NCBI RefSeq assembly: GCF_000246855.1
Contig: NC_016609.1
Coordinates: forward strand, 5,592,744 to 5,656,743
Reading direction: 5' to 3'
DNA length: 64,000 nt
Source of the DNA: Niastella koreensis GR20-10
GTDB lineage: Bacteria > Bacteroidota > Bacteroidia > Chitinophagales > Chitinophagaceae
Notes under the pieces: model-generated
What the model saw: only the letters and a program-made list of their open reading frames with translations
Told to the model about the DNA's origin: nothing
Databases searched by the model: none
Shown: positions 9,284 through 62,098 of the stretch, piece after piece
How positions within the stretch are numbered: the stretch's first letter is position 1
How the letters are laid out: every line of letters begins with the position of its first letter
Made by a program: the position numbers and the translations under genes

Positions 9284-9482
9284 GTGAGTTGTGAGTTGTC
9301 AGTAGTGAGAGCCTCGCTCTGATTGATCATACTCATTAATGGCAGTCACATGATTTTAATAAGAATGCCCCAATAACTTAAAGTTGTTGGGGCATTCGCC
9401 TTTATAAATGTCGCGAGATTGCAGATTAATCGAAAGGCACGAAAATTGGTATCTCACTCACTACTGACTACTCACTACACCA
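9284..9482 (+). repeat. Inverted heptad-word array (GTGAGTT/CTCACTA) flanking a terminator
   Basis: The left arm at 9284-9312 reads as 7-nt words GTGAGTT GTGAGTT, then GTCAGTA GTGAG. The right arm at 9452-9482 reads as the complementary words CTCACTA CTGACTA CTCACTA. The two arms enclose the terminator 9363-9397. The right arm touches the kdsA stop codon. Confidence 0.6.
9363..9397. terminator. Bidirectional terminator between the DUF4382 gene and kdsA
   Basis: Perfect 11-bp stem GAATGCCCCAA (9363-9373) with TTGGGGCATTC (9387-9397) between convergent genes. Confidence 0.75.
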
Positions 9483-10296
9483 CTGCCTTTCTGATCTTCA
9501 CCAGCTTCTGTAACAATCCTTCCAGCAGCTCCAACCGCAGCATATTGGCACCGTCGCTTTTGGCTACTGCCGGATTGGGGTGTGTTTCAATAAATAATCC
9601 ATCGGCGCCGGAAGCGATCGCTGCGCTGGCAATAGTGCCTATCAGTTGTGGGTTACCACCGGTCACGCCTGTGGTTTGATTGGGTTGTTGCAAACTGTGT
9701 GTGCAATCCATTACCACCGGGGTTCCATGTTCTTTCATCCAGGGAATATTCCGGTAGTCAACCACCAGGTCCTGGTAACCGAAGGTATTTCCGCGCTCGG
9801 TCAGGATCACATTCTCATTACCGGCTTTTACAATTTTTTCTACCGCAAACTTCATAGAAGGGCCGCTAACGAATTGCCCCTTTTTTACGTTCACAATTTT
9901 ACCGGTTTCGGCGGCAGCTACCAGCAGATCGGTTTGTCGGCACAGGAAAGCTGGGATCTGTAAAATATCGGCATATTTCGCAGCCATGGCCGCTTCATCG
10001 TGCCCATGAATATCAGTAGTAACAGGCACCTTATAGGCTTTTCCTGTTTTTTGTAACAATTGTAACCCGTTTTCATCGCCCAGGCCGGTAAAAGAGGAAC
10101 CACTGGTACGATTGGCCTTCCGGTAAGAGGCTTTAAATATGTATGGGATACCCAGGTTCCGGCAAATGGTAGATACCTTATCCCCTACTTCCATCAACAG
10201 TTCCTCACTTTCCACCACACACGGGCCGGCAATCAGAAAGAAGTTGGTGGCATCGTATTGTTGTCCTGCAAAAAGGTTCGTAAGCATATTTTTCAT
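9475..10296 (-). CDS. kdsA: 3-deoxy-8-phosphooctulonate synthase (KDO-8-P synthase), metal-type
   Basis: Condenses phosphoenolpyruvate with arabinose 5-phosphate in KDO synthesis for lipopolysaccharide. The 273-residue protein starts at 10296 (MKNMLTNLF). An in-frame ATG 63 bp further upstream would add an unrelated AT-rich peptide and is rejected. Visible segments are FFLIAGPCVVES, FKASYRKANRTS, the PEP-binding loop GLGDENG, and ERGNTFGY. Cys26 in AGPC is the metal ligand that separates the metal-dependent class from the E. coli-type Asn enzymes, so this should be a metal enzyme. The rest of the KDO pathway is not nearby. Confidence 0.93.
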   Translation of the reverse strand: MKNMLTNLFAGQQYDATNFFLIAGPCVVESEELLMEVGDKVSTICRNLGIPYIFKASYRKANRTSGSSFTGLGDENGLQLLQKTGKAYKVPVTTDIHGHDEAAMAAKYADILQIPAFLCRQTDLLVAAAETGKIVNVKKGQFVSGPSMKFAVEKIVKAGNENVILTERGNTFGYQDLVVDYRNIPWMKEHGTPVVMDCTHSLQQPNQTTGVTGGNPQLIGTIASAAIASGADGLFIETHPNPAVAKSDGANMLRLELLEGLLQKLVKIRKAVV

Positions 10297-10312
10297 GGCG
10301 CAAAGGTAAACT

Positions 10313-10451
10313 AATGTGATAATTTGATAATTAGCGAATTTGATAATGTACTCACTCAATATGAGCAGGTCGAAAAATTATTTAACAACCTAAAAATCAA
10401 ACAGTTCAAATATCTAATTATCACATTATCCAATTATCACATTATCACATT
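10313..10451. repeat. Inverted TGATAATT-word element between kdsA and tdh
   Basis: The left arm AATGTGATAATTTGATAATT (10313-10332) has its complement repeated in the right arm (10416-10451), which is built from AATTATCACATT words. It occupies the divergent intergenic region. The same arms recur at 31840-31925 and 50970-51071. Confidence 0.6.
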
Positions 10452-10511
10452 GGTATTTGGTCTTTTTTTCTTTTTTTTGCGGCTAGTACAAAAACTAACT
10501 ATCGTTAATAC

Positions 10512-11459
10512 ATGATTAGAGAAAGAATACTCGTAATTGGCGCATCGGGCCAAATTGGGGTTGAATTAACCCTGGCCCTGCGTAAGATCTATGGCAATAA
10601 CAATGTGGTTGCTTCGGATCTGCGGGAAGAAAACGAACTCCTGAAAGGCACCGGCCCATACGTTAGCATAGATGTTATGAACAAGGAAATGCTGCACGTA
10701 CAGGTTATCAGGCAGAACATTACCCAGATTTACCTGCTGGCAGCCATACTTTCGGCAACCGGTGAAAAAAACCCCAACCTGGCCTGGCACCTGAACATGC
10801 AGGGTTTGCTGAATGTGCTGGACATTGCCCGCGAAGAAAAGATCTATAAAGTTTACTGGCCAAGCAGTATTGCGGTATTTGGTCCTACTTCGCCTAAACA
10901 AAACTGTCCGCAACAAACCATTATTGAGCCTACCACGGTTTATGGTATCAGTAAGTATGCGGGTGAGTTCTGGTGTAATTACTATCACCAGCGTTACCAC
11001 GTAGATGTGCGCAGTATTCGTTATCCCGGTTTAATCTCTTATAAATCTGCACCAGGTGGCGGTACTACCGACTATGCAGTGGAGATTTATCACGAGGCGC
11101 TGGAAGAAAAGAAATATACCTGCTTCCTGCGAGAAGATACCTATCTGCCCATGATGTATATGCCGGATGCCATCAGGGCTACCATTGAATTGATGGAAGC
11201 GCCGGCTGCACAAATCTCTATCCGAACCTCGTACAATGTGTCGGCCATGAGTTTCTCGCCCAAAGAGATCAGCGCCGCCATTAAAAATTATATTCCTGAA
11301 TTCAGCATCAGCTACGAACCCGATTACCGGCAATCTATCGCCGACAGCTGGCCGCAAAGTATTGACGATTCTGTTGCCGGTAAAGACTGGAGCTGGAAAC
11401 CTGAATACGACCTGGATAAAATGACGAAGGACATGCTGGAAAACCTTCGCCAGCAATAG
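10512..11459 (+). CDS. L-threonine 3-dehydrogenase, SDR (GalE-like) type
   Basis: Oxidises L-threonine to 2-amino-3-oxobutyrate with NAD+. The 315-residue short-chain dehydrogenase has the nucleotide-binding motif GASGQIG near the N-terminus, SSIAVFGP, and the catalytic pair in YGISK. The segment YPGLISYKSAPGGGTTDYAV is typical of epimerase-like threonine dehydrogenases (as described from Cytophaga/Flavobacterium) and not of sugar epimerases. It is monocistronic and ends 18 bp before a strong terminator. The main alternative is a generic NAD-dependent epimerase. Confidence 0.85.
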   Translation: MIRERILVIGASGQIGVELTLALRKIYGNNNVVASDLREENELLKGTGPYVSIDVMNKEMLHVQVIRQNITQIYLLAAILSATGEKNPNLAWHLNMQGLLNVLDIAREEKIYKVYWPSSIAVFGPTSPKQNCPQQTIIEPTTVYGISKYAGEFWCNYYHQRYHVDVRSIRYPGLISYKSAPGGGTTDYAVEIYHEALEEKKYTCFLREDTYLPMMYMPDAIRATIELMEAPAAQISIRTSYNVSAMSFSPKEISAAIKNYIPEFSISYEPDYRQSIADSWPQSIDDSVAGKDWSWKPEYDLDKMTKDMLENLRQQ

Positions 11460-12945: not shown

Positions 12946-13050
12946 TTCCAATTGACAATAGACAATTGGCAACAGACAAAATAAAAACATTAATAAAAAA
13001 CCGTCCAGGGTTACTAACCGGGACGGTTTTTTATTGCCTGTTGTTTATTG
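12946..13050. repeat. Inverted CAATTGACAATAG-word array around a terminator
   Basis: The left words GACAATA GACAATTG GCAACAGACAA (12951-12980) are complementary to TTATTGCCTGTTGTTTATTG at 13032-13051. The arms embrace the terminator 12995-13032. The same words recur at 37703-37822. Confidence 0.5.
12995..13032. terminator. Bidirectional terminator between convergent genes
   Basis: AAAAAACCGTCC (12995-13006) pairs perfectly with GGACGGTTTTTT (13021-13032), giving T-runs on both strands. It serves the TlpA-like gene and the DUF1080 gene. Confidence 0.9.
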
Positions 13051-13867: not shown

Positions 13868-13924
13868 ACGAGCAACTTAAAACTTTAAACTTTCAACTTT
13901 GAACTTAAAACCTTGAATTGAAAA
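13868..13924. repeat. AACTTTA/AACTTTC heptad-word array
   Basis: Tandem 7-nt words AACTTTA, AACTTTC, AACTTTG, AACTTAA and AACCTTG immediately downstream of the acylphosphatase stop. Related words recur at 39330-39445 and 43195-43272. Confidence 0.55.
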
Positions 13925-14200
13925 CTAGGAACGCTGTATCACAAAACTCATAAACACCTGCCTTTCCAGGTTCTCCACATCAACCGATTTTACTTTTGCA
14001 TGTGGTGGCCCCTGTTTACACCAGTGCACGAGCTCATCCAGCTGATCGGCTGTACCGGTGGCCAGGATGTGTACATTACCATCAGGCAGGTTCTTTACAA
14101 CCCCTGAAATACCCAGCTCCAGGGCTTTTTCTTTGGTGCTGTGCCGGTAATATACCCCCTGCACCAGTCCACTTATGGTAATTGAAATGGTTTGTTCCAT
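13925..14200 (-). CDS. acyP: Acylphosphatase
   Basis: Hydrolyses acyl phosphates. The 91-residue protein starts at MEQTISITI (14200), since the six residues before it in frame are not part of the fold. It has the family pattern SGLVQGVYYRHSTKEKALEL, in which the Arg binds phosphate, then GVVKNLPDGNVHILATG with the catalytic Asn, and a C-terminal strand. The usual motif reads GxVQGVxFR. Here it is GLVQGVYYR, a normal variant. Single gene. Confidence 0.92.
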   Translation of the reverse strand: MEQTISITISGLVQGVYYRHSTKEKALELGISGVVKNLPDGNVHILATGTADQLDELVHWCKQGPPHAKVKSVDVENLERQVFMSFVIQRS

Positions 14201-18187: not shown

Positions 18188-18197
18188 TACCCCCCAG

Positions 18198-18300
18198 TCC
18201 GCCAACTGGCGGAGAGCCAGTTACAGGTTACAGGTTTCATGGCCGCGAACCGTTTGCCGTTTCACGTTTGCCGTTTGCCGATTCACGATAAAATAAACAA
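18198..18300 (+). repeat. Hairpin and GTTTGCC heptad-word array between hisD and hisC
   Basis: A short hairpin TCCGCCA/TGGCGGA (18198-18213) is followed by GGTTACA words (18219-18237) and then 7-nt words GTTTGCC GTTTCAC, GTTTGCC GTTTGCC and GATTCAC (18251-18288). CGTGAATC and GGTTCGCG words of this kind recur beside the transposase gene at 30645-30735. The array lies inside the his transcription unit and has no T-run. Confidence 0.55.
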
Positions 18301-20708: not shown

Positions 20709-20815
20709 AAACCAGTTACAGGTTACAGGTTGCATGTTACAGGGAAAAACAAGTGCATTTGTTATATAACCTGAAACCTGTACCCATGGAACCTGCAACT
20801 TGAAACCTGCAACGG
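20708..20815 (+). repeat. Inverted GGTTACA/AACCTGC word array
   Basis: The left words GGTTACA GGTTGCA TGTTACAGG (20713-20740) and the right words AACCTGAAACCTG, AACCTGCAACTTG and AACCTGC (20769-20813) are complementary and can form a long imperfect hairpin between the dehydrogenase and cytochrome genes. Confidence 0.5.
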
Positions 20816-22429: not shown

Positions 22430-22433
22430 TTAT

Positions 22434-22515
22434 AATGTTCGTAGGTTATTAGGTTCATAGGTTATTTAGATCGTTAACCTATGAATCTAATAACTTAATA
22501 ACCTAAGAACTTTAA
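22434..22515. repeat. Inverted GGTTATTA/TAATAACC word hairpin after hisB
   Basis: 8-nt words GTTATTAG GTTCATAG GTTATT (22447-22470) face complementary words TTAACCTATGAATC, TAATAACTTAATAACCT (22475-22504), forming a long imperfect hairpin between convergent genes. Confidence 0.55.
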
Positions 22516-22522
22516 CTTTGAA

Positions 22523-26095: not shown

Positions 26096-26285
26096 AGCTG
26101 GTAAACGGCAGAAATGGAAAGGCAGTAGGAAGTGGGAAAAACGCTGCAAGCAACAAGCTGAAAGCCCAAAGCTAAAAGCTGAAAGCAAATACAATTCCGG
26201 TTTTGGCTTTGGCCTTTAACCTTTAGGCTTTAACCCGTTTTCTTTACTTCGATATTCAATATTCGACATTCAATATTTTGTATTC
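26096..26285. repeat. AAGCTGA/GGCTTTA heptad-word module with a 71-nt perfect copy elsewhere
   Basis: The spacer is filled by 7-nt words: AAGCTGA AAGCCCA (26157 on), GGCTTTG GCCTTTA (26204 on) and CAATATT CGACATT (26249-26280). Positions 26174-26244 are identical, base for base, to the reverse complement of 44553-44623. The words on the left are partly complementary to those on the right, so the module can fold on itself. Confidence 0.75.
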
Positions 26286-27689: not shown

Positions 27690-27804
27690 CGGCAAACATG
27701 AATACCTCCACATTGGATATTCCGACTTTTGGCTTTCAGCTTTAAATTTTGAGTTTTCGGCATTCGGCTTTCTTATGTCTGCCGTCTGCCGTTTGCCGTC
27801 TGCC
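27690..27804. repeat. GCCGTTTGCCGTCTGCC word array between aroA and aroC
   Basis: The spacer carries TGGCAAACGGCAAAC (27687-27701), GGCTTTCAGCTTTAAATTTTG (27730-27750), GGCATTCGGCTTTC (27758-27771) and GCCGTCT GCCGTTT GCCGTCT GCC (27780-27803). The left and right words are complementary in part. It is located inside the aromatic operon. Confidence 0.5.
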
Positions 27805-29097: not shown

Positions 29098-29098
29098 A

Positions 29099-29168
29099 AG
29101 TTGATGCGTTGATAGGTTGACAGGTTAACAAGTTGACACGTTAACTTGTTAACCTGTCAAACAGTTAA
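29099..29168. repeat. GTTGACAG/GTTAACAA octad-word hairpin between aroB and aroA
   Basis: 8-nt words GTTGATGC GTTGATAG, GTTGACAG GTTAACAA and GTTGACAC GTTAACTT. TTGACAGGTTAACAAGTT (29119-29136) is perfectly complementary to AACTTGTTAACCTGTCAA (29143-29160), giving an 18-bp stem with a small loop. The same words recur at 39190, 43100, 44445, 46000 and 49467. Confidence 0.65.
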
Positions 29169-30197: not shown

Positions 30198-30626
30198 TCA
30201 AATCTGAATTTTCTGAAAAACTTCCAGCTCACTGTCCAGCGTCTTCGTTTTATGATGTTCTTCCTGTTTATCAAGATATTCCAACACCTGTTTTATTCCA
30301 CTGGGGCTTACACTCAAAGCAGCGAACCCTTCCTCCCACTCAAACTGGCTCTTGATAAAGTTGCCTTCATTGATCCAGTTGGCAGAATCGGTGCGGATGC
30401 TTTTCATGATCTGCGCCAGGTTTTGTGTAGGCATCATTTGCATCACGGCATGCATGTGATCATCCGTGCCGTTGACCGACAGCACGTTGATCCCATTTTC
30501 TGTTGCATGCTTTTTAATGTGGGCAAATAAAACAGTACGAACAGGCTTGGTCAACAAAGGCTCTTTGTTCTTTACACAAGTGATTACATGAATGAACAAA
30601 TACACTTTGCTGGTTTGGCTATTCAT
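30198..30626 (-). CDS. REP-associated/IS200-like Y1 tyrosine transposase (RAYT-like)
   Basis: 142-residue Y1 HUH endonuclease. The HUH motif is DDHMHAVMQM (His57, His59). The catalytic tyrosine is Tyr117 in QVLEYLDKQEEHHK, with the downstream Q and HH pattern of the family. All catalytic residues are present. No IS ends or partner tnpB are visible, and the gene is squeezed between aroF and aroB, nine bases from aroB. This arrangement suggests a stably inherited single-copy RAYT-type protein, not an active insertion sequence. It is preceded by a word array (30640-30741) that shares sequence with the hisD-hisC spacer. Confidence 0.8.
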   Translation of the reverse strand: MNSQTSKVYLFIHVITCVKNKEPLLTKPVRTVLFAHIKKHATENGINVLSVNGTDDHMHAVMQMMPTQNLAQIMKSIRTDSANWINEGNFIKSQFEWEEGFAALSVSPSGIKQVLEYLDKQEEHHKTKTLDSELEVFQKIQI

Positions 30627-30639: not shown

Positions 30640-30741
30640 TATTCGTGAATCGTGAATCGTGAATGGTTCGCGAACTTTGTGATTTATGAATAATCCCGCA
30701 CGTCGGAAATCATTGCCGATTGCCGATTGACGATTGCCGTC
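30640..30741. repeat. CGTGAAT / GCCGATT heptad-word array upstream of the RAYT-like gene
   Basis: GTGAATC GTGAATC GTGAATG (30647-30667) is followed by GTTCGCGAAC and, at 30716-30739, GCCGATT GCCGATT GACGATT GCC. It shares CGTGAATC and GGTTCGCG words with 18241-18290 (there in the opposite orientation). Confidence 0.55.
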
Positions 30742-31839: not shown

Positions 31840-31933
31840 AATTTGATAATGTGATAATTCAATAATGTGATAATGAACCAACGGCCCGGTTTCGGACAAT
31901 CAGCTAATTATCACATTATCAAATTAGCTGATT
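31840..31933. repeat. Perfect 20-bp inverted repeat upstream of the DAHP synthase gene
   Basis: AATTTGATAATGTGATAATT (31840-31859) and its exact complement (31906-31925) enclose 46 bp. A second hairpin, AATCAGCTAATT (31898-31909) with AATTAGCTGATT (31922-31933), overlaps the right arm, so the two folds exclude each other. It lies between deaD and the DAHP synthase gene and could act as an RNA switch or processing signal. Confidence 0.7.
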
Positions 31934-33623
31934 ATCGTCTGCTGTCGGCCTCGTTCATCCGGATCCTCCGGCCTTTATAATTCTTTCCGTCAATAGACCG
32001 GATCATCTGACTGGCAACGCGTTTGTCAATCTCGATCCAGCTATTCATTTCTTTCATATCTATACGACCGAGTACATCTTTTTGCAGTTCGCTCATATCC
32101 AGGATGAACTGCAGGAAGCTGGCTTTATAAAAGCCATCTTTTGTACCCAGGTTCACAAATAACTTGGTATAGTCACCACCGCCGCCGTTGCCGAACTTCC
32201 GGCCTCTGGTATCGGCAAATTGTCCTCTTCTGTCGCCACCACCATCTCTTCTCACGGTTAAGCGTTCACCGGTTACCCGTTCACCACGACGTTGTTCACG
32301 TACGTTCAGGTCTTCCGCGTTCTCATAATATTTCAAAAAACGGTCGAACTCCAGGGCTGCCACGCGTTTCAGGATCTCTTCCTTGCTAACGTCGGCAAAC
32401 TTCTCTTCGAGCATAGGCACATAGGCTTCATAATCGCCCTCGTTCACCTCTAACTGCAACAGTTTATCCATAAAGTGGTAGAACTGTTTGCGGCAAACGT
32501 CCTTGCCTGTTGGAATCTCGAGCTTGTGGAAAGGCGCCTGTACAATGGTTTGTATCTGCCGCATTTTTCCCAGCTCCCGCACATGCACGATAGACATACA
32601 CACCCCGGTTTTACCGGCACGGCCGGTTCTGCCGCTTCTATGGGTGTATACTTCCACATCATCGGGTAACTCGTAGTTGATAACGTGGGTGATACCCTGT
32701 ACGTCGATACCGCGGGCGGCCACATCCGTTGCTATTAAGAGCTGTAAGGTTTTTTCGCGAAAATCGCCCATTACCTTATCGCGTTGCTGCTGGGTTAAAT
32801 CGCCATGCAGCGCATCAATGTCGTATCCTTCGCGGGTTAATTTTTCGGCAATATCCTGGGCATCGGCTTTTGTACGCGTAAAAATGATGCCGTAAATGCC
32901 CGGGTTAAAATCGATCAACCGTTTCAGGGCTTCGTACCGGTGCTGTGCACTGGTAAGGTAGTACTGGTGGTCGATGTTCTTGTTGGCAGAATTCACTTTA
33001 CCCACTGTAACCTCGATCGGATCTTTCATGTACCTTTTGCTTACCCGGCGAATTTCCGGAGGCATGGTAGCGCTGAACAACCACGTGGCTTCACGTTTGG
33101 GGGTGTTCTTCAAAATGAATTCAATATCGTCCTGGAAGCCCATGTTCAACATTTCATCGGCTTCATCCAGAATCACGTACTGGATCTGTTCCAGGTCAAT
33201 AGCCTTGCGTTCTATTAAATCGATCAACCGGCCTGGTGTGGCTACAACGATCTGTACACCTCTTCTCAGCTCGCGGATCTGCTGGCCTATTGGGGCGCCG
33301 CCGTATACCGCCGCCACAAACATACCGGGTATAAATTTTTTAAACCCTTCCACTTCGTTCACGATCTGCATGCACAATTCCCTTGTAGGACAAACCACTA
33401 ATGCCTGGGGATGTTTCAACTGCTCATTCACCAAATGCAACAGGGGTAGCCCAAATGCAGCCGTTTTACCTGTACCCGTTTGCGCCAAACCCACCAGATC
33501 TTTTGTTCCGCTCAGTAAAACAGGAATCGCCTGCTCCTGAATGGGGGTGGGGTTAACATATCCTAAAGCATTGGTAGCCTGTATCAGCCGTTCATCTAAA
33601 CCCAATGCATCAAATGTAATCAT
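31932..33623 (-). CDS. DEAD-box RNA helicase with DbpA-type C-terminal domain
   Basis: 563-residue ATP-dependent RNA helicase, the CsdA/DeaD type. Motifs in order: TPIQEQAIP (Q), AQTGTGKT (I), PTRELCMQI (Ia), DEAD (II), SAT (III), RGIDVQGI and HRSGRTGRAG (V-VI). A charged linker with arginine and glycine clusters (about 450-485) leads to a DbpA-like RNA-binding domain (about 485-560, KLFVNLGTKDGFYKASFLQF). It probably remodels rRNA or mRNA structure. It interrupts the aromatic genes but shares their orientation, so it may be co-transcribed. Confidence 0.93.
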   Translation of the reverse strand: MITFDALGLDERLIQATNALGYVNPTPIQEQAIPVLLSGTKDLVGLAQTGTGKTAAFGLPLLHLVNEQLKHPQALVVCPTRELCMQIVNEVEGFKKFIPGMFVAAVYGGAPIGQQIRELRRGVQIVVATPGRLIDLIERKAIDLEQIQYVILDEADEMLNMGFQDDIEFILKNTPKREATWLFSATMPPEIRRVSKRYMKDPIEVTVGKVNSANKNIDHQYYLTSAQHRYEALKRLIDFNPGIYGIIFTRTKADAQDIAEKLTREGYDIDALHGDLTQQQRDKVMGDFREKTLQLLIATDVAARGIDVQGITHVINYELPDDVEVYTHRSGRTGRAGKTGVCMSIVHVRELGKMRQIQTIVQAPFHKLEIPTGKDVCRKQFYHFMDKLLQLEVNEGDYEAYVPMLEEKFADVSKEEILKRVAALEFDRFLKYYENAEDLNVREQRRGERVTGERLTVRRDGGGDRRGQFADTRGRKFGNGGGGDYTKLFVNLGTKDGFYKASFLQFILDMSELQKDVLGRIDMKEMNSWIEIDKRVASQMIRSIDGKNYKGRRIRMNEADSRR

Positions 33624-35830: not shown

Positions 35831-35856
35831 ATCGTTGTATTAGTTGAATCGTGATT

Positions 35857-35922
35857 TTAAGATACAGTTACCGGTTTTCGGTTTCCAGGCCACGGTAACT
35901 GGAACCTGGCAACTGGTAACAG
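35857..35922. repeat. Word array between pheA and the aminotransferase gene
   Basis: ACCGGTTTTCGGTTTCCAGG (35869-35888) is followed by GGTAACT GGAACCT GGCAACT GGTAACA (35895-35921), about 7-nt period. Confidence 0.5.
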
Positions 35923-39189: not shown

Positions 39190-39282
39190 GATAAGTTGAT
39201 CAGTTAACATGTTAACACGTTGATAGGGTTGACTGAGTTGATAAAGTTGACACGTTAACACGTTGAAAAGTTAACAGGTAAA
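39190..39282. repeat. GTTGACAC/GTTAACAC octad-word array
   Basis: About ten 8-9-nt words in a row, for example GTTGATCA GTTAACAT, GTTAACAC GTTGATAG and GTTGACAC GTTAACAC. Followed directly by the murQ terminator. Confidence 0.6.
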
Positions 39283-39284
39283 TA

Positions 39285-39319
39285 TATAATAAAAGCCCAC
39301 TCCGGTAACCGGGGTGGGC
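39285..39319 (-). terminator. Terminator downstream of murQ, copy 1 of a duplicated module
   Basis: GCCCACTCCGG (39295-39305), TAA, CCGGGGTGGGC (39309-39319), with a T-rich tail on the minus strand. The module with its left flank (AGTTAACAGGTAAATA) recurs at 43125-43187. Confidence 0.75.
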
Positions 39320-39441
39320 CTGCTATAAATTTTTAGTTTAAAGTTTTATGTTCAATGTACAAGTGTTATAGTAAACTCAATAAAAATAACTAACGAACTA
39401 AAAAACTCAACAACTTAAAACTTTGAACCTTAAACTTTAAA

Positions 39442-40311
39442 CTACTTCAGTGAGTCTACCGCTTTCTTCACACTCCCATACTTCAACAACAATTCCCGGG
39501 CTTTATCATAACTGCTGATGCCCGTTTTTTCCATTACCATTATGGTGCCCCGGTCAACCAGCTTGCTGTTGGTCAACTGCATGTTCACCATTTTGTTGTC
39601 CTCTACCCGGCCTATCTGGATCATTACGGCGGTAGAGATCATATTCAACACCAGCTTTTGCGCGGTACCGCTTTTCATGCGGGTGCTGCCGGTAACAAAT
39701 TCAGGACCTACCACCACTTCAACAGGCAGTTCGGCTGCATCGGCCAGGGGCGAACCAGCATTGCAGGTAATACAACCGGTGATAATGCCTTTTTTTCGGG
39801 CTTCGGTAAGGGCGCCAATTACATAGGGCGTGGTGCCACTGGCAGCAATACCTATCACTACGTCTTTTTCGTCGATGGCGTGTTTCATCAAATCGGCCCA
39901 GCCCTGCTCCCAGCTGTCTTCAGCCTGTTCTACCGGGCGTTGAATTGCTACGTCGCCACCGGCAATGATGCCGATCACCAGCCCTTGCGGCAATCCATAA
40001 GTAGGGGGAATTTCGCTGGCATCGAGGATCCCTAACCGGCCACTGGTTCCGGCGCCAATATAAAACAGGCGGCCACCAGCCAGCATTTTATCCGAAATAG
40101 CAGTCACCAGTTTCTCTATTTGAGGGATGGCTTTCTCTACTGCGACTGGCACCTTTTTATCCTCATTGTTCATGTTGGTGAGCAACTCATTAATGCTCAT
40201 TTGTTCCAGATGCCGGTAATCGCTCGACTGCTCTGTAATCCTGGTAAATTCTGCTGACATATTTCTGTTGTTCAATGTTTTATTCGCGTTGGGCATAAGG
40301 TTGTTCTTCAT
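39442..40311 (-). CDS. murQ: N-acetylmuramic acid 6-phosphate etherase
   Basis: Cleaves the lactyl ether of MurNAc-6-phosphate in peptidoglycan recycling. The 289-residue SIS-domain protein has LFYIGAGTSGRLGILDASEIPPTYG, EDSWEQGWADLM, VIGIAASGTTPYVIGAL, CNAGSPLA and GSTRMKSGTAQKLVLNM. The start overlaps the stop of the upstream kinase as TAATG, which favours the long form, although MSAEFTRI (40260) is also possible. Next to the sugar kinase it forms a MurNAc salvage pair. Confidence 0.93.
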   Translation of the reverse strand: MKNNLMPNANKTLNNRNMSAEFTRITEQSSDYRHLEQMSINELLTNMNNEDKKVPVAVEKAIPQIEKLVTAISDKMLAGGRLFYIGAGTSGRLGILDASEIPPTYGLPQGLVIGIIAGGDVAIQRPVEQAEDSWEQGWADLMKHAIDEKDVVIGIAASGTTPYVIGALTEARKKGIITGCITCNAGSPLADAAELPVEVVVGPEFVTGSTRMKSGTAQKLVLNMISTAVMIQIGRVEDNKMVNMQLTNSKLVDRGTIMVMEKTGISSYDKARELLLKYGSVKKAVDSLK

Positions 40312-41512: not shown

Positions 41513-43099
41513 ATGAAAAGACTTCAAGTATGGATGCCTCTGTTGTTTTCTGTAGTATTGATCCTGGGCATGTTTATAGGTTCGGCGTTAAGATCTAATG
41601 TACCCAGCTCGCGTGGCATTTTTAACAGTGGCAAACGTTCAGTATTGCAGGAAGTGATGGACCTGGTAAACTTAAAATATGTTGATAAAGTAAATACCGA
41701 TACCCTTACCGAAGATGCCATCCAGGCTATGCTGGCCCACCTCGATCCCCATTCCGTTTTTATTCCCTCCTCCAATGTGGAAGAAATAAATGAAGACCTT
41801 CAGGGTAACTTTGAAGGCATTGGGGTTGAATTCTTCATTATTGACGATACAGTACATGTTACCAATGTGCTCGCCGATGGGCCCAGCGACAAAGCCGGCT
41901 TACAGGTGGGCGACAAATTCCTGAAAGTGGGCGACTCAACCGTTACCGGCAAATCGATCACCGGCGATAAAATAAAGAACTTTTTACGGGGTACGGGCGG
42001 CAGCAAGGTTCAGGTTACTGTTTTGCGCAACGGCAAACCGGTTTCAACAGCCATCACCCGCGGCACCATTCCCCTGTACTCAGTGGACGCCTCTTATATG
42101 ATAGACACCACTACCGGCTACATACATCTTAATAAATTCGCCGGCACTACCTACGAGGAGTTTATGAAAGCTATGGAAACCCTGGAGGCAAAGGGCATGA
42201 AAAAACTCATCCTCGACCTGCGGGGCAATGGCGGCGGAATTTTAACCGAAGCCACAGATATTGTGGATGAATTCCTCGACGATGAACGCCTGATCGTATA
42301 TACCCAGGGCAATAAATCGGAAAAACAAGAATACCATTGCAAACGCCCGGGTTTGTTTGAAAAAGGCAAACTGGTCCTGCTGGTTGATGAAAGCTCGGCT
42401 TCTGCCAGTGAAGTGGTTGCAGGCGCCCTGCAGGACTGGGACCGCGCCACCATCATCGGCCGCCGTACTTTTGGCAAAGGACTGGTACAGGAACAATATG
42501 ACCTCACCGACGGTTCTGCATTGCGGTTAACCGTTGCCCGTTATTATACCCCCCTTGGCCGTAATATTCAAAAGCCCTATAACAAAGGCCGCGAAGCGTA
42601 TAATGAAGAACTGGCCCAGCGGTATATGAACGGAGAACTGGTGAATGGCGACACCGTTACCCAACATACCGGCCCCGCCTTTAAAACCAAGAAAGGCAGA
42701 ATTGTATACGGCGGCGGAGGCATTACGCCCGATGTATTTATTCCGTTCGATACAGCCACCTTCTCCAGCAATGTGTATGTGCTGTTCGACAACCAGCTGT
42801 TCAGCAAATTCATTTATATCTATTATCAGCAGAATAAAGCCTACTTCGATCAGTTTAAGAACCCGGCCGATTTTACCCGTCGTTATAACGACACCCGCAC
42901 GGCATGGAACAGCCTGGTGACCTATGCCGCCAGGAATTCAGTAAACGTGCAGAACGTTCCTGAACGCGATAAGGTAGAAGTAGAAAAACGCATCAAAACC
43001 TGGCTCGCCCGCCAGATCTGGCGCATGGAAGGATATTATGAAGTGAGTAATTCGGATGATACGGCGATTTCAAGAGCGATGCAGGAAATGAAGAAGTAA
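41513..43099 (+). CDS. C-terminal processing peptidase (S41 family)
   Basis: 528 residues from MKRLQVWMP. An in-frame upstream extension is rejected because it precedes the membrane segment. An N-terminal anchor (about 5-27) is followed by a CtpA N-domain, a PDZ domain (about 85-170, GIGVEFFIIDDTVHVTNVLADGPSDKAGLQVGDKF), and the S41 protease core with KKLILDLRGNGGG, the nucleophile Ser in DESSASASEVVAGAL and the Lys in GRRTFGKGLVQ. A C-terminal helical extension (about 440-528) is typical for the Bacteroidota members. Acts in the periplasm on proteins with exposed C-termini. Confidence 0.92.
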   Translation: MKRLQVWMPLLFSVVLILGMFIGSALRSNVPSSRGIFNSGKRSVLQEVMDLVNLKYVDKVNTDTLTEDAIQAMLAHLDPHSVFIPSSNVEEINEDLQGNFEGIGVEFFIIDDTVHVTNVLADGPSDKAGLQVGDKFLKVGDSTVTGKSITGDKIKNFLRGTGGSKVQVTVLRNGKPVSTAITRGTIPLYSVDASYMIDTTTGYIHLNKFAGTTYEEFMKAMETLEAKGMKKLILDLRGNGGGILTEATDIVDEFLDDERLIVYTQGNKSEKQEYHCKRPGLFEKGKLVLLVDESSASASEVVAGALQDWDRATIIGRRTFGKGLVQEQYDLTDGSALRLTVARYYTPLGRNIQKPYNKGREAYNEELAQRYMNGELVNGDTVTQHTGPAFKTKKGRIVYGGGGITPDVFIPFDTATFSSNVYVLFDNQLFSKFIYIYYQQNKAYFDQFKNPADFTRRYNDTRTAWNSLVTYAARNSVNVQNVPERDKVEVEKRIKTWLARQIWRMEGYYEVSNSDDTAISRAMQEMKK

Positions 43100-43187
43100 G
43101 TTGATAGAGTTGAAGTTGATAAGGTTGACAAGTTAACAGGTAAATAAATAACAAAAGCCCACGCTGGTTACCAGTGTGGGCTTTTGT
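43097..43187. repeat. Word array plus bidirectional terminator, copy 2 of a duplicated module
   Basis: GTTGATAG AGTTGAAGTTGATAAGGTTGACAAGTTAACAGG words (43104-43140) are followed by ACAAAAGCCCACGCTGG (43151-43167), TTA, CCAGTGTGGGCTTTTGT (43171-43187). It matches the module at 39262-39319, and the stem differs by compensating changes (C-G to T-A, U-G to G-U), so the hairpin is under selection or recently copied as a unit. Confidence 0.7.
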
Positions 43188-43194
43188 ATGGGGT

Positions 43195-43250
43195 TCAAAG
43201 TTTAAAATACAGGCCTGGTAGTTAACTCAAAACCTAATAACCTTAAACTT
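43195..43250. repeat. Inverted AACTTTGAAC word array
   Basis: GTTCAAAGTTTAAA (43193-43206) is complementary to TTAAACTTTCAACC and TTCAACTTTGAAC at 43241-43267, overlapping the end of the next gene. Confidence 0.45.
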
Positions 43251-43628
43251 TCAACCTTCAACTTTGAACTTTTCACTCCCATGCGGATCAAGTAATTCTT
43301 TCTTCTCAATTCGATAAGAATAAATCAACCCGGCTCCGCCTCCCATGGCAACAAAAGCAAACCACAGAGCTGGACTGTCATAATCATGTAGTATGTATTG
43401 CGTAATCGAATAGGCTATTGCCAGGCCAGCGCCGGCGCCAAACAGCAGCAATCCCCATTTCAAATTGGCATAAGGCGCAGGCCGGTGTACCTTGTCTTTG
43501 GGGTTCATCCCCTTTTCCAACATCGCCAGGTTTTCGCGGCTTATTAAATACCTAACACCAAAGATCAGGATAAACAATCCTAAAATGGATAATATTAACC
43601 AGACGAATACCATTACATCTTTATTCAT
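43251..43628 (-). CDS. DUF6249-like small membrane protein
   Basis: 125-residue protein with three hydrophobic segments (about 5-27, 58-80 and 86-103), a cytosolic loop with GMNPKD, and a charged C-terminal tail. The pattern of LAMLEKGMNPKD followed by LKWGLLLFGAGAGLAIAY matches small DUF6249-like proteins that often sit next to sigma factor genes. It is convergent with ctpA and divergent from the sigma factor. It may sense or modulate the sigma factor, but this is inference. Confidence 0.65.
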   Translation of the reverse strand: MNKDVMVFVWLILSILGLFILIFGVRYLISRENLAMLEKGMNPKDKVHRPAPYANLKWGLLLFGAGAGLAIAYSITQYILHDYDSPALWFAFVAMGGGAGLIYSYRIEKKELLDPHGSEKFKVEG

Positions 43629-43853: not shown

Positions 43854-44438
43854 ATGCAAACCGGACCGGTTGATAATGAGATCATAAACAGAGTGCTGCA
43901 AGGCGAACAGGCACTGTATGCCCAATTGGTAAAACGATACACGCCATTCGTTTTTACTATTGTGCTGCGCTATACCGCCAACCGGGAAGACGCGGAAGAA
44001 ATAGCCCAGGACATATTTGTAAAAGCTTATCGCAGCCTGGCCGATTTCAGGGGCGAGTCAAAATTCAGCACCTGGTTGTATACCATTGTCACCACCACCT
44101 GCATTACTTTTTTACGTAAGAAAAAAGTACCCGTTCATTCGCTGGACACCGAACAGATATTTGACCTGGCCGACAATCAGAATTCAACTTTCAAAGCCAA
44201 CCAGGTTGAACAGAAATCGAAAGTGCAGGTACTGAATGAAGCGTTGCGATTATTGAGCATCGACGACGCCCGGATACTTGCCTTATTTTACCAGGCCGAA
44301 CAAAGCCTGGAAGAAATTGGCCGCATTCTGGGTGTTGAACCCAATACCGCTAAGGTAAAACTGCACCGGGCCCGGCAACGGTTGAAGGAAAAGATGGAGA
44401 CACATTTTGCGGAAGTGGTTGAGGAGTTGAGGGGGTGA
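43854..44438 (+). CDS. ECF RNA polymerase sigma factor
   Basis: 194 residues from the ATG at 43854; the GTG further upstream is less likely. Region 2 reads YTANREDAEEIAQDIFVKAYRSLADFRGESKFSTWLY and region 4 reads IDDARILALFYQAEQSLEEIGRILGVEPNTAKVKLHRARQRLKEKM. It directs polymerase to a stress-type regulon, usually under control of a membrane anti-sigma factor. The gene at 44784 is the candidate. Confidence 0.9.
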   Translation: MQTGPVDNEIINRVLQGEQALYAQLVKRYTPFVFTIVLRYTANREDAEEIAQDIFVKAYRSLADFRGESKFSTWLYTIVTTTCITFLRKKKVPVHSLDTEQIFDLADNQNSTFKANQVEQKSKVQVLNEALRLLSIDDARILALFYQAEQSLEEIGRILGVEPNTAKVKLHRARQRLKEKMETHFAEVVEELRG

Positions 44439-44783
44439 GGGGTTGATCAGGTGATAGGTTAACAAGTTGATAGCGTTGATAGAGTTGACAGAGTTGATAA
44501 AGGCGGATACACAATGTTGAATATTGAATGCCCAATATTGAATGTTGAAGTGAAGAAAACGGGTTAAAGCCTAAAGGTTAAAGGCCAAAGCCAAAACCGG
44601 AATTGTATTTGCTTTCAGCTTTTACCTTTCAGCTTTATGCCAGTATTTGCTTGCAGCTTGTGCAGCTTGCAGCTTGCGGCTTGCAGCTGTTCTCCTACTA
44701 CCTTTGATCGCCGAAGCTTTAGTGTAGGAGATCTACTGCCGTTTGCCCTTTGCCCGGCATTTTATAACTTTAAACACATTAAA
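44436..44783. repeat. Repeat-filled spacer between the sigma factor and its partner
   Basis: The spacer is made of a GTTGATAG/GTTGACAG array (44445-44505), GAATATT GAATGCC CAATATT GAATGTT (44517-44547), the 71-nt perfect inverted copy of 26174-26244 (44553-44623), more GCTTTCAG/GCTTTTACC words, then GCTTGTGCA GCTTGCA GCTTGCG GCTTGCA GCTG (44652-44690) and GCCGTTTGCCCTTTGCCCGGC (44738-44758). Despite its length there is no gene in it. Confidence 0.65.
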
Positions 44784-45964: not shown

Positions 45965-46023
45965 CTTATATGAGTAATTTTCTTTATTAATCCAATTAAC
46001 GTGTTAACTTGTCAAACCGTCAA

Positions 46024-48303: not shown

Positions 48304-48771
48304 CTATTGAGAATTTGCAGTTTTTTAATGTCTTACCGGCTCAACCCAAAAAAATCGGTATAAGGGGTCGCAAATGTAAGGCATGATAACAAAGAAAAAA
48401 CTTGTTTTTACTAACAACATTTTTTCTTAAAAAACGTACCAGATTTTTATTAGAACGCCCAAATTTATGATTTATAAAAACATTGTTCATAAGTAAAAAA
48501 AACCTAATTTTAAGCACCTCCCTGGCACTCCCACTTTTCAATGGTGCTTCCAAACTGCTCACTTTATGGCGACTTTACAGCGACATTATAGTGACCTTAT
48601 AGCGATATAGCTCCTCTATGCTTCCTCAATGGCACCTCTATGCCTCCTCTGTACCTGAACACCACATCCAATGGTCAGTTAATTTACCGCCCTTTGCACC
48701 AACAATGGGGCTTTGCACCACTTTCCGCCGCCGGGGTAGCAATGAGGTACCAATAAGGTTCCATTAAGGAA
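48304..48771. other. 468-bp spacer with an 11-nt periodic stretch
   Basis: At 48566-48609 the sequence repeats as GCGACTTTACA, GCGACATTATA, GTGACCTTATA, GCGATATA. At 48611-48655 it continues with CTCCTCTATG and ACCTCTATGCCTCCTCTG. On the left (48304-48535) it is AT-rich. No open reading frame, promoter or tRNA is evident. Confidence 0.4.
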
Positions 48772-49422: not shown

Positions 49423-49466
49423 TGCAGGAATCTCCTATGCGAATTTAGCCATTACTAGCAGTTTAA

Positions 49467-49567
49467 AAGTTGACAGGTCGAAAAGTTAACAAGTTAATAA
49501 ATACCCAACAGGCAGCCGTTTACGCTTAAACTTGTTAATTCGTCAAGAAGTTAACTCGTCAACTAAA
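49467..49567. repeat. Inverted GTTGACAG/GTCAACT word array
   Basis: The left words AGTTGACAGGTCGAAAAGTTAAC (49468-49490) have complements GTTAACTCGTCAACT (49551-49565) and CTTGTTAATTCGTCAAG (49531-49547) on the right, about 35 bp apart. They lie between two divergent genes. Confidence 0.5.
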
Positions 49568-50969: not shown

Positions 50970-51071
50970 AATGTGATAATTTGATAATTGAGAAATCCAC
51001 ATACAACACAAAAACTCAAAATGCTCTGCATTTTGAGTTTTTGCATTATCACATTATCGAATTATCACATT
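50970..51071. repeat. TGATAATT inverted repeat enclosing a bidirectional terminator
   Basis: The arm AATGTGATAATTTGATAATT (50970-50989) and its near-perfect complement (51053-51071, one mismatch) enclose a terminator: AAAACTCAAAATGC (51011-51024), TCT, GCATTTTGAGTTTT (51028-51041). The nested structure can form one long cruciform of about 100 bp. Confidence 0.75.
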
Positions 51072-51330
51072 AGCTAATTAAAAAAACAAAGCGCCCCGCA
51101 TTTAGCAGAGCGCTCTTGTGAAATCTTGTTCAGGTACTTTGGACGGTTTTACTAAGGACTGGTTTGCTGATAGAGATTTCTGGTTTTCACGATATTGGAT
51201 ACGGGGTACGGATCAAAAACCAAAAAAACTATAATAAATAAAGTAAAGGGTTTAGGGTTCAGGGGCCTTTTCTATGGTCTCAGGAGTAAGGTCGTTCGTG
51301 TAAATCCGGTACAGAACTTTTAAAGGGTAT
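51072..51330. other. Spacer, no feature seen
   Basis: The section holds only an 8-bp palindrome (GAGCGCTC region 51107-51114) and AT-rich sequence. No open reading frame with coding character. Confidence 0.3.
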
Positions 51331-54103: not shown

Positions 54104-54193
54104 TACAGCTGTAAGCCGAAAGCTGAAAGCAACACACTTCTGCGCGGCAACCCTGAACTCCGAACTTGAAACCTGGAACTTGAAACCTGAAAC
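54104..54193. repeat. Mosaic word array upstream of the MBL gene
   Basis: AGCTGTAAGCCGAAAGCTGAAAGC words (54106-54130), CTGCGCGGCAACC (54140-54152, also at 33761-33773), then GAACTTG AAACCTGG AACTTG AAACCTG (54160-54190). The order of blocks matches the array at 33690-33799. Confidence 0.55.
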
Positions 54194-55075
54194 ATGTTTT
54201 ATAATATAACCGGTTATTCAACCGCCTTATTTTCTACCTGGTATTTTATTGATGAGCTCCGGCTGTTGTTCGATGCGGGCGATGGGCTTATGGCCAACCT
54301 GTTGCAGAAGAGCAGGAAAATAGAACACGTGTTTATTTCCCATGCCGACCGCGATCATGTTACCGGTTTGCTGCAGTTCAATCAACTGAATTCACGGCCG
54401 GGTTTTCCTGTTATTTATTATCCCAAAGACAGCGGCTCTTTCCCCGCGCTGAGTGATTTTTCAGTAAAATTCGATCCGCATGTAACTGGCACCGTATGGA
54501 CGCCCATTTCGCCAGAAAACGATGTACCCATAAGGAAAGATATGTTCGTGAGGAGTATACCCAACACCCATGCGGCACAAAAAGGCGGCATCAGAAGTCT
54601 GAGCTTTAAGGTCATTCAAACCAAAATGAAATTAAACCCTGAGCTCGTAAAGTTGCCTGCAGCGGATATAAAACGAATTATTGAACAAAAGGGTAAAGCA
54701 AGAACGCACACCGAAGTTCAGACCAATTTAATCAGCTACTCCGGCGATACGCCGGTTGAAGACCTTGGCCGTTGGGAAAATTCGCAAATCCTCATTCACG
54801 AAGCCACCTTCCTGCGCGATGATGATGAGGAAAAGGAGCTGGGCGGCCACTCCGCCAAACACAGTTACCTGGAAGAGGTGATGGAAATGGTAAGCGGGTC
54901 AAACATTGAGCAACTCATCCTGGGCCATTTTAGCAGCCGGTACAGCGCCGAACAAATTGACAGCCGCATTATGGAATTATGTGAAAAATATGCAATCAAC
55001 ATTCCGGTGTTCAGGGTATTGCCCGGTGAGGTGGGTCATAACATCCTGCATGGCCAACCCGCGAATGCGAAGTAA
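54194..55075 (+). CDS. Metallo-beta-lactamase-fold hydrolase (RNase Z-like)
   Basis: 293-residue MBL-fold protein. The metal-binding motif HxHxDH reads HADRDH (His50, Asp52, Asp54, His55), so the second histidine is replaced by Asp. Further ligands lie in NTHAA, YSGDT, HEATF and GHFSSRY, as in RNase Z-type enzymes. A canonical tRNA processing role is possible but not certain because of the change and the unusual helical insert (about 140-175). Single gene. Confidence 0.8.
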   Translation: MFYNITGYSTALFSTWYFIDELRLLFDAGDGLMANLLQKSRKIEHVFISHADRDHVTGLLQFNQLNSRPGFPVIYYPKDSGSFPALSDFSVKFDPHVTGTVWTPISPENDVPIRKDMFVRSIPNTHAAQKGGIRSLSFKVIQTKMKLNPELVKLPAADIKRIIEQKGKARTHTEVQTNLISYSGDTPVEDLGRWENSQILIHEATFLRDDDEEKELGGHSAKHSYLEEVMEMVSGSNIEQLILGHFSSRYSAEQIDSRIMELCEKYAINIPVFRVLPGEVGHNILHGQPANAK

Positions 55076-56403: not shown

Positions 56404-56490
56404 CTGGAAAAACAGGTAAAAGCCAAAAGCGGAAAGCCTACAACTAAAATGTATTTGGCTTTGAGCTTTAGCCTTTAGGCTTTAAGCCGC
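56404..56490. repeat. Degenerate copy of the GGCTTTA word module
   Basis: AAAAGCCAAAAGCGGAAAGCC words (56419-56440) and GTATTTGGCTTTGAGCTTTAG, CCTTTAGGCTTTAAGCCGC (56452-56490) are a diverged relative of the 71-nt module at 26174-26244. Confidence 0.55.
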
Positions 56491-61394: not shown

Positions 61395-61400
61395 TCGTCA

Positions 61401-61433
61401 AAAAAAAGACAGCCAGCCATGCGGCCGACTGTC
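61401..61433 (-). terminator. Intrinsic terminator in minus orientation
   Basis: GACAGCCAGCC (61408-61418), loop ATGC, GGCCGACTGTC (61423-61433), two G-U pairs when read on the minus strand, followed there by eight T. It lies 540 bp beyond the M16 gene terminator, so it may end a separate minus-strand transcript or serve the convergent GT-C gene. Confidence 0.55.
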
Positions 61434-61973
61434 GTGATCTAGCAACCCCTAAACCAGCGAAATCGTTAAACAGGTAATTTTTCAGAGCAACTTAACGATG
61501 CTTACTATGAACAAAGCTTTACCTGCTACTAATTAAAGCCGGTACTAAGACACCTCTCACCTCCGGGATATCTTTACCTATAATTTTATGTTAAATACAT
61601 CCATGTGAGTTATCCAGCTCACATGATTGCATCATGTTATCCTATGTATTTTTTATTCCTGTGAAACTGTGCCATGCAAATAATTTTCATTTCTAGCACC
61701 AATGATCAAATCCAGCGTTAAACGCTATTCGTAAAGCAGTACAAGATCTAATAGGGAGGAGTTTGCTATATCCGTTTGTTCCTGCAAGTTAGTGTTTAGG
61801 AGAAAATAAAAAAATATTTTTTGGGATTTTTATTAATAAAACGAATGAGCAAATTTTCCTTGAAGGGCACGCTTGAACAGCGTTTGCGCCGATTTGTATT
61901 TTTAGTTTTCATCCTTCATCACGGCTGCGCTCATTTGTATTGCAATTCAACAAAATACACATACCATCATATA
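61434..61973. other. 540-bp spacer without a recognised gene
   Basis: AT-rich, with scattered short inverted words (CACATG, CATGTG near 61602-61625). A 61-codon frame begins at a TTG (61821) but runs through the terminator 61974-62002 and is rejected. The stretch is bounded by terminators on both ends, so a small RNA could be hidden here. Confidence 0.3.
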
Positions 61974-62002
61974 AAAAAATCCCGCCTATGGCGGGATTTT
62001 TT
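61974..62002. terminator. Bidirectional terminator downstream of the M16 gene
   Basis: AAAAAATCCCGCC (61974-61986), TAT, GGCGGGATTTTTT (61990-62002), a perfect 13-bp stem. Followed by GTGAGTA GTGAGTG words (62003-62017). Confidence 0.85.
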
Positions 62003-62098
62003 GTGAGTAGTGAGTGTGCTCGCTACCTTGAAGATGTTTGAAAAATTGGAAACCCACTGGCCACTTCACTTTCGTATTGTGACTTAGTGACTTAGCTG

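Follow-up and report, generated by a model that had tools for sequence, protein, structure and literature searches.

What fills the spaces between genes in a bacterial genome when word after word of 7 or 8 nucleotides is repeated there, never quite exactly, and answered by complementary words on the other side of a hairpin? The question is raised by a 64,000-nt stretch of Niastella koreensis GR20-10 (NC_016609.1, positions 5,592,744–5,656,743; hereafter the window), part of a genome assembled as one contig (9,033,684 bases), in which a reading of the sequence alone (the original prediction) described such arrays. We confirmed that degenerate intergenic arrays of period 7 and 8 are real and genome-wide; by a modest balance of probability they form one population of dispersed, modular repeats that would grow by slippage and be copied between loci. 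The gene set consisted of crude longest open reading frame (ORF) calls picked greedily with no annotation, and gene starts and some spacer limits are uncertain. Arrays were found with a detector that scores periods 7 and 8, at a threshold of ≥7 for the coordinates of the original prediction and of ≥9, ≥11, or ≥12 in the other analyses.

The arrays lie where they had been predicted: 31 of 33 coordinates fall at a period-7 or period-8 array, whereas positions drawn at random do so in 36% of cases in spacers and 6% in coding DNA. No array was detected at coordinate 43100, where Tandem Repeats Finder reports a repeat of period 15 (43098–43128), or at 57667; coordinates 10313, 18241, 31840, and 44738 fall within crude ORF calls. 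At least 20 spacers were said to hold tandem words, and arrays were detected in 21 of the 44 window spacers (≥25 nt, score ≥9). The proposed autocorrelation of intergenic sequence gave z-values of 9.7 at lag 7 and 7.2 at lag 8 relative to within-spacer shuffles, with elevated values at lag 14 (z = 5.5), lag 21 (z = 4.5), and lag 1 (z = 13.8) as well. Coding DNA of the window has no peak at lag 7 or 8.

Larger samples of the genome gave the same picture. In 464 kb (the window and 20 further pieces, score ≥12), intergenic arrays of periods 4 to 15 numbered 0, 0, 0, 38, 23, 2, 0, 5, 0, 0, 22, and 0, respectively, those of period 14 being the double of 7; shuffled spacers gave none, and called ORFs (409 kb, score ≥12) contained six arrays of period 7 and three of period 8. 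A looser score (≥9) over 864 kb yielded 119 period-7 and 67 period-8 intergenic arrays, compared to two and none after shuffling (the control in these counts being one shuffle of the spacers), together with 10 arrays of period 9 and nine of period 11. Called ORFs in this sample held 27 arrays of period 7 and 16 of period 8, periods 6 and 9 being equally common there (17 and 28). The original prediction had named two outcomes that would count against it, equal periodicity in shuffled DNA and no enrichment in the rest of the genome. Instead, the arrays nearly disappear on shuffling, and 40 evenly spaced 20-kb pieces outside the window (800 kb) contain 150 of them, which extrapolates to approximately 1,700 genome-wide. 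An array was present in 82 of the 358 spacers of ≥40 nt in these pieces, at uneven density: 10 of the 40 pieces had none and the richest had 13. The array-free pieces are possibly recently acquired regions. One spacer of the window (48561–48769) carries three arrays of 11-nt period, which belong to a different period class.

Clustering of the words, as the original prediction had proposed, revealed recurrent families. An identical unit consensus is shared by 117 pairs among the 119 period-7 arrays (4 for random words) and by 66 pairs among the 67 period-8 arrays (0 for random words), and 15 family words cover 109 of the former and 50 of the latter. Within a family the units differ at fixed positions. 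When our genome and eight relatives were pooled, neighboring words of the GTTRACNN family differed at positions 1 to 8 in 0, 0, 12, 31, 1, 13, 19, and 44 cases (59 neighbor pairs), and a uniform spread of differences was rejected in 14 of 14 families counted (p = 6e-3 to 6e-31; these values are indicative, the family words having been picked by hand from the clustering and their registers fitted by hand). The words had been described as keeping their period and not their exact sequence, unlike ordinary microsatellites; this holds, with units that vary at fixed positions and recur across loci, and the near-identical units arisen at the locus that characterize a perfect microsatellite were not found. 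The accompanying claim that each locus is a variation of one theme stands in part: the words are degenerate and keep their period, but they also form families common to many loci and are contained in copied composite modules.

These composites are dispersed through the genome. In a spacer-versus-spacer BLAST, 78 of 399 spacers fell into one connected group. A 111-base piece of the window (44540–44650) had at least 45 matches in its own genome, at no fewer than 42 places including itself, several of them 90–94% identical; 40 of 188 candidates were scored for this count, and opposite-strand overlaps were set aside in counting places. Its 20 best loci differ in their surrounding sequence and align in one module order, i.e., GTTRACNN, GTTGATAAAG, AATATTGAATGTC, AAAGCCTAAAGG, a CCGGAA loop, CTTTCAGCTTT, and TTGCAGCTT, with the modules present varying by locus and not all of them found at each. 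A 261-base composite query had at least 42 matches in the same genome, up to about 220 bases long (self excluded), and from at least 1 to at least 66 matches in each of nine same-genus genomes; among the matches listed, those in relatives were mostly below 100 bases, the longest being 181 bases at 71% in genome G003. The hexamer AATACA is enriched within 16 nt outside the array ends of several families (23 versus 2.6 shuffled in our genome; 10 versus 1.8 in relatives), an enrichment partly inflated by the copied composites. Over whole spacers the elevation of AATACA is mild (2.25 versus 1.57 per kb) and smaller than that of its control anagram, AATAAC (2.98 versus 1.61). An Rfam scan of the window returned no family at its gathering score. 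In one relative (G005:C198:279011-279538), a 75-nt composite module is itself tandemly repeated approximately seven times. GC-rich palindromes of the TCCGCC..GGCGGA type, found in or beside arrays (18188–18238; L107, L109, L111; L024), are a separate repeat family.

With respect to genes, arrays were observed at gene ends, operon junctions, and terminator flanks, in agreement with the original prediction. Divergent spacers seldom contain them: 5 of 78 did so in our sample compared to 87 of 291 other spacers (p = 6e-6), and 21 of 151 compared to 211 of 536 across all pieces (p = 9e-10). Convergent spacers contained one in 77 of 138 cases. In tandem spacers, the first array starts a median of 3–3.5 nt from the upstream stop codon, and 75 of 111 tandem arrays lie within 15 nt of it, versus 48 expected from uniform placement (maximum 59 in 1000 trials). 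The median distance between stop and array was 6 nt for the 288 gene ends that face an array spacer; the word period overruns the stop codon or the gene at 72 of these ends, while 91 lie over 30 nt from the nearest array. Array-free terminator-like inverted repeats are located a median of 29 nt from the stop (n = 90).

A further possibility was that arrays supply TAG stop codons, given that TAG terminates 113 of the 288 genes beside array spacers compared to 74 of 386 others. This was rejected: TAG is equally frequent at near (≤10 nt, 63 of 161) and far arrays (50 of 127), and overrun alone therefore does not explain the excess. At two composite sites in relatives, the array by eye replaces the gene end and stop codon in genome G009. 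C-terminal tails of at least four unaligned residues occurred in 20 of 129 cells at array ends compared to 13 of 211 elsewhere (rank test, p = 0.72). The sample did not bear out an earlier suspicion of strand bias in the arrays (32 to 24).

Most arrays had been predicted to have complementary words and to fold into hairpins. The complementarity is roughly borne out: 60 of 92 array spacers had an inverted repeat of ≥12, with an arm centered in an array in 51 of the 60, while a single shuffle left such a repeat in one of the 92 and array-free spacers had one in 16% of cases (n = 277). Folding is less uniform, since only half of the eight strands folded were strongly structured (z = −3.3 to −6.2) and the other four folded weakly (z = −1.0 to −1.6). 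The arms are polar. In array hairpins between tandem genes (n = 77, score ≥11), the inward-reading arm contained more G than C in 61 cases and more C than G in 10 (6 ties omitted; p = 5e-10), and in convergent spacers 24 such arms were G-richer versus 5. Array-free inverted repeats share this polarity more weakly (17 to 12 in our genome, 9 to 2 in relatives). Triplets of the inward arm outnumber their complements accordingly (GTT 299:44 AAC, AAG 195:12 CTT, AGG 149:18, GTG 60:4), a pattern that recurs in a larger genus set including the first relatives. The polarity is prevailing, not invariable. Because an inverted repeat reads alike from both strands, it is a property of the hairpin and not of the transcribed strand, and its occurrence in unrelated words argues that hairpins are inherited as units or subject to a common constraint, rather than arising as random palindromes.

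Aligned hairpins of relatives differ by 142 one-sided changes, 11 paired double changes (approximately 4 by chance), and 14 breaking changes; this excess of one-sided changes disfavors compensatory in-place drift of both arms as the main mode. Static mismatches gave no wobble signal of RNA-level selection, with G·U to A·C ratios of 17 to 34 in our genome, 29 to 15 in relatives, and 46 to 49 pooled, and of 3 to 12 in a smaller, earlier run. Where aligned tandem-gene hairpins had changed on one side, the result was G·U in 36 cases and A·C in 17 (p = 0.013), which is suggestive, the genome pairs being non-independent. We likewise did not adopt the idea that the words serve to provide stop codons in all frames: inward arms contain more stop triplets than shuffled sequence (423 versus 369) but also more of the opposite triplets (334 versus 238), and the families GTTACAG, GGCAATC, and GTTACC by eye contain no stop triplet.

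Comparison of orthologous spacers, another proposed check, showed exchange of words between close relatives. Across nine genomes, the proteins flanking the spacers of the aro region are mostly 83–99% identical. In the spacer between the DEAD helicase and DAHP synthase genes, inverted word arrays are visible by eye in each of the nine; their words are GATAAT in our genome and G005, GTTAAC in G004 and G009, GCTAAT in G006, G007, G001, and G002, and TTTGAAAA in G003. A long ORF start shortens the automatic limits of this spacer, which scores lower in the automatic survey. We surveyed 42 window spacers in 259 ortholog cells, which share history, and took a local score below 30 as no homology (95th percentile of unrelated spacers, 26). 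In 25 of the 35 cells where our array and the ortholog both have an inverted repeat of ≥12, there was no sequence homology between them. Sites are nevertheless often retained in tandem spacers, with an array or inverted repeat of ≥12 in 55 of 88 cells orthologous to our array spacers compared to 15 of 66 others (p = 8e-7, with the same shared history); the remaining 33 of 88 have neither. Convergent spacers have no such site memory (22 of 28 for our array spacers, 11 of 15 for non-array spacers). Word copy number varies between relatives, and array-free spacers, e.g., the pheA leader region, remain alignable in the nine genomes. At three composite loci compared for an empty site, G004 and G009 carry other word repeats at two and the spacer of the third (L100) is unalignable; orthologous spacers at all three are too divergent for an empty site to be read. 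In G004 and G009 the same 3′ sites, that of the aroB-aroA spacer (L053) included, are occupied by other long hairpins with GACCTGT... ends that by eye resemble miniature inverted-repeat transposable elements (MITEs).

Arrays of period 7 or 8 were present in eight of eight same-genus 20-kb pieces (1 to 14 each, score ≥11). In the rest of the family, surveyed by one 16–20-kb piece per genome, G018 had 16 arrays, G012 and G013 had four each, and nine others had none or one. The word GTTRACNNGTTRACNNGTTRAC occurs 377 times in our genome. Of 394 further Bacteroidota genomes that were drawn (none same-genus), three contain it, there as a different, perfect repeat given that the reversed control gives equal matches. 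Among the matches listed in a scan of named genomes are Niastella, Longitalea, gut Bacteroidales, and scattered other phyla. Non-orthologous spacers resemble each other within genomes more than label permutation allows (0 of 2000), with likeness of 27.8 in G003, 20.4 in G007, and 18.9 in G006 compared to 17.2 between genomes; in at least one lineage, G003, a single word family occupies several spacers where relatives carry others. Replacement of word families at orthologous sites, arm polarity, arrays that abut stop codons or run over them, their scarcity between divergent genes, and the AATACA junction had not been part of the original prediction.

We therefore favor, with some reserve, a model in which the arrays are one population of dispersed, modular, non-coding repeats, present genus-wide and shaped by growth in steps of 7 or 8 nt, copying between loci, and persistence at the 3′ ends of genes. 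Each hairpin arm is a run of near-identical 7- or 8-nt words, whose copy number would change through slippage in 7- or 8-nt steps. Existing intergenic sites would receive whole hairpins or modules copied from elsewhere in the genome, perhaps through template switching during replication, with the arrays serving as scattered microhomology. Persistence behind stop codons and around terminators could arise because insertions in coding DNA or promoters are removed. The hairpin there may also help to cap or terminate the upstream transcript, with no particular word sequence selected, in which case sites would be expected to retain a hairpin of changing sequence.

Several observations weigh against this model. 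No sharp ends of the composite were found in the 20 aligned copies, which fray on both sides, and neither target duplications nor a mobilizing enzyme for the arrays were found. Our genome (16.4), G004 (16.2), and G009 (16.5) have no within-genome excess of likeness. The mostly one-sided changes imply that the arms are not tightly kept in step, whereas retention of tandem sites exceeds what pure tolerance easily explains, and slippage and copying alone do not explain the fixed variable positions and shared polarity. A bolder reading, which we regard as doubtful, is of a regulatory hairpin that is inherited by site and free in sequence: its position, presence, and polarity behind the stop (G/A/T-rich, C-poor arm first) would be kept genus-wide, while its sequence would be continually rewritten from a concertedly evolving genome-wide vocabulary of 7- and 8-nt words, by an undescribed copying in 7–8-nt steps that also overtakes gene ends and stop codons.

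Among the alternatives, a tentative case can be made that the cell needs a stable hairpin behind many stop codons and that word repeats are an interchangeable supply, with structure and site selected and sequence free. Such hairpins might block 3′ exonucleases, aid termination, or affect terminating ribosomes as reported for the repetitive extragenic palindromes (REPs) of Escherichia coli. The short distance from the stop in tandem spacers is consistent with this, as are the retention of tandem sites and the 22 of 28 convergent cells, the takeover by MITE-like hairpins in G004 and G009, the one-sided G·U excess, and the strong predicted folds in four of eight strands. The lack of wobble preference in static mismatches and of site memory in convergent spacers argues the other way, together with the 33 of 88 tandem cells that have neither array nor inverted repeat, the 91 of 288 gene ends far from any array, and the 10 of 40 pieces with no array. 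It is quite improbable that the arrays are ordinary intrinsic terminators that are repetitive by chance, even if over half of convergent spacers have one and some arrays enclose a GC-rich stem and T run. Where that stem is present it is separate from the words and by eye better conserved than those flanking it (9280–9474); the array stems themselves are A+T-rich and by eye usually have no T run at their base, arrays also lie between co-directional biosynthetic genes such as aroB and aroA, and array-free terminator-like repeats lie farther from the stop. We give hardly any credence to independent microsatellites, i.e., to each spacer having grown its own array by slippage with a period set by the DNA polymerase footprint. 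The concentration at periods 7 and 8 and the variable copy number between relatives would be expected, and heptamer slippage is proposed in the accessible text of PMC4679880 and PMC4692102. However, the recurrence of words as families far above chance and the ordered multi-module copies largely refute this origin for our genome, and neither the polarity common to unrelated words nor the fixed variable positions fit it.

The window also encodes an IS200-like Y1 (HUH) transposase (30198–30626, minus strand), located beside aroB in our genome and eight same-genus genomes, with an HMH motif and a candidate tyrosine by eye; the gene looks domesticated. That it mobilizes the arrays as elements of the REP type is highly improbable. 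In favor, it is the sole close Y1 match of our genome, it keeps the same site in all nine genomes, as genes for REP-associated tyrosine transposases (RAYTs) tend to do, and the arrays are dispersed polar hairpins at 3′ ends. Its protein, however, scores 24.2 bits against the NCBIfam RAYT model (cut-off 80) and 53.8 against the IS200 model (cut-off 55), and the elements lack sharp ends. The RAYT score covers this close window gene only; a second Y1_Tnp match of our genome is a 204-aa frame. It was rejected as the mobilizer because the distribution of the gene beyond the genus does not follow that of the arrays: G012 carries arrays but no homologue (its one Y1 match is remote, 199 aa), G018 has only a fragment with a stop, and G011 has an orthologue (54% identical, near aroA) yet almost no arrays in the piece seen.

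The tandem heptanucleotides of Calothrix and other heterocystous cyanobacteria are known as short tandemly repeated repetitive (STRR) sequences. The arrays resemble these in having 7-nt tandem units, with several such repeats in a genome, at many intergenic loci (here 119 in 864 kb) and by description are set apart from them by mixed 7- and 8-nt words, fixed variable positions, polar hairpins near stop codons, and occurrence in Bacteroidota. Calothrix heptanucleotide repeats are mentioned in the accessible part of PMC4692102. The heptanucleotide hairpin of a Nostoc intron, as far as its description is available, shares degenerate base-pairing 7-nt repeats, motif classes, and copy-number change, but occupies one intron locus whereas the present families are genome-wide with modules copied between loci. 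The available text of PMC4692102 treats GGGAATC heptamers of Xanthomonas and GGGGA(C/T)T heptamers of Nostoc, a G-rich word type studied as G-quadruplex. They are likewise intergenic and sometimes inverted, and in Xcc and Xac they lie mostly between the same genes with varying length and sequence; as described there, these G-rich heptamers differ from the many unrelated words and whole-family replacement found here. TAACTGA direct repeats are reported from Beggiatoaceae, cyanobacteria, and five Bacteroidetes (PMC4679880, in the sections available). They too are tandem heptamers of intergenic regions, found in scattered phyla, and some Bacteroidetes have longer arrays as well as other heptamers close by; unlike ours, they consist of one exact word, related heptamers are seldom repeated, and in BOGUAY they lie mostly just upstream of starts (169 direct sets, one indirect).

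REPs, bacterial interspersed mosaic elements (BIMEs), and REPINs (paired REPs) are, in the accounts accessible to us, dispersed, extragenic, hairpin-forming, and arranged in mosaic composites, as are the arrays, which have many extragenic and often composite copies. According to the accessible text, some REPs of E. coli lie ≤15 nt behind stop codons (PMC12306157), and a REP is a short palindrome tagged at one end, e.g., by GTAG or CGTC (PMC3733652). In contrast, the arrays have no single conserved palindrome (20–40 bp), no common tag, and no RAYT association by either model score or genomic distribution; they comprise about 15 word families with arms of 7- and 8-nt words. Cyanobacterial heptanucleotide repeats and REPs or BIMEs are thus the closest known systems, the defining features of REPs being absent. 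In the accessible open-access literature, with subscription papers outside its scope, we found no recognizable account of degenerate 7- or 8-nt word hairpins in Niastella or Chitinophagaceae.

With approximately 1,700 extrapolated arrays in one genome and no fewer than eight further genomes of the genus at graded distances, the arrays offer a natural system for an old question, namely the over-representation of heptamers in bacterial spacers and the manner of their spread. Any model, be it slippage, template switching, hidden transposition, or 3′ hairpin function, has to reproduce three features that can be counted: words are exchanged at orthologous sites, hairpins share a polarity, and arrays run over stop codons. 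Comparative searches based on sequence conservation would overlook a class of 3′ elements if selection acts on hairpin sites regardless of their sequence.

In the first half of the window, GTGAG(T) heptamers flank a terminator-like hairpin in a convergent spacer (9282–9478), where by eye the stem is present in seven of seven genomes shown and the flanking words differ. The period detector identified a TGATAATT / ATTATCAC octamer pair in a divergent spacer (10312–10451), CAATAGA heptamers with TTGCC/TTGTT words around a GC-rich terminator-like stem (12949–13040; detector span 12949–12972), AACTTTN heptamers supported by family fit as well (13874–13926), and GTTACAG with GTTTGCC heptamers (18220–18289). 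A GTTACAG / AACCTGN heptamer hairpin (20715–20813; fold z = −3.3) is followed by a AGGTTATT octamer hairpin in a convergent spacer (22430–22522; fold z = −6.2), which is new relative to the original prediction and has an inverted repeat of ≥14 in nine of nine genomes, mostly with no sequence homology to ours. BLAST grouping and dispersed copies define a composite of AAGCNNA, GGCTTTA, and ATTCAAT modules (26147–26277). The aromatic biosynthesis region contains AAGCTGA and GTCTGCC heptamers in the aroA-aroC spacer (27726–27804; detector, orthologs), a GTTRACNN octamer hairpin between aroB and aroA (29098–29168; fold z = −5.9), a CGTGAAT / ATTGCCG heptamer pair between the DAHP synthase and Y1 genes (30643–30739; fold z = −1.2), and a GATAATNN octamer hairpin between the DEAD helicase and DAHP synthase genes (31840–31934; fold z = −5.9). 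AAGCTTA and GAACTGA heptamers lie immediately 3′ of the tyrA stop (33732–33801; detector, orthologs), and the pheA-aspC spacer has a GTTACC/GGTAAC heptamer hairpin with a weak array (35831–35938; score 8).

Further along are a CAATTGN / TTGCCTA heptamer pair (37707–37817; fold z = −1.1) and a detected series of GTTRACNN octamers, a terminator-like stem, and AACTTTA heptamers (39190–39443). A convergent spacer holds GTTGATAA words, a terminator-like stem, and AACCTTA heptamers (43098–43272), the first words of which escape the period-7/8 detector. The longest composite of the window, comprising GTTRACNN, ATTGAAT, AAAGCCT, a loop, CTTTCAG, TTGCAGC, and GTTTGCC (44418–44755), is matched in its middle part at roughly 40 or more other places. 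It is followed by a short GTTAAC/GTCAAC octamer array (45996–46023; score 7.5) and a GTTRACNN octamer pair (49460–49560; score 8, fold z = −1.0). The remaining arrays, all found by the detector, are TGATAATN / ATTATCAN octamers around a terminator-like stem (50970–51080), AAGCTGA and GAACTTGAAACCTG words that fill a spacer 3′ of a stop codon (54107–54196), GCTTTAG heptamers (56458–56487), and GTGAGTA words 3′ of a by-eye terminator-like stem followed by GTGACTTA octamers (62003–62095). Separately, a short Phe/Tyr-rich leader peptide, MNITKAYRFFYFFYFSFYF..., and a terminator-like stem precede pheA (36902–36997, minus strand) in a region alignable in nine genomes; Rfam gave no match to this leader, a probable attenuator.

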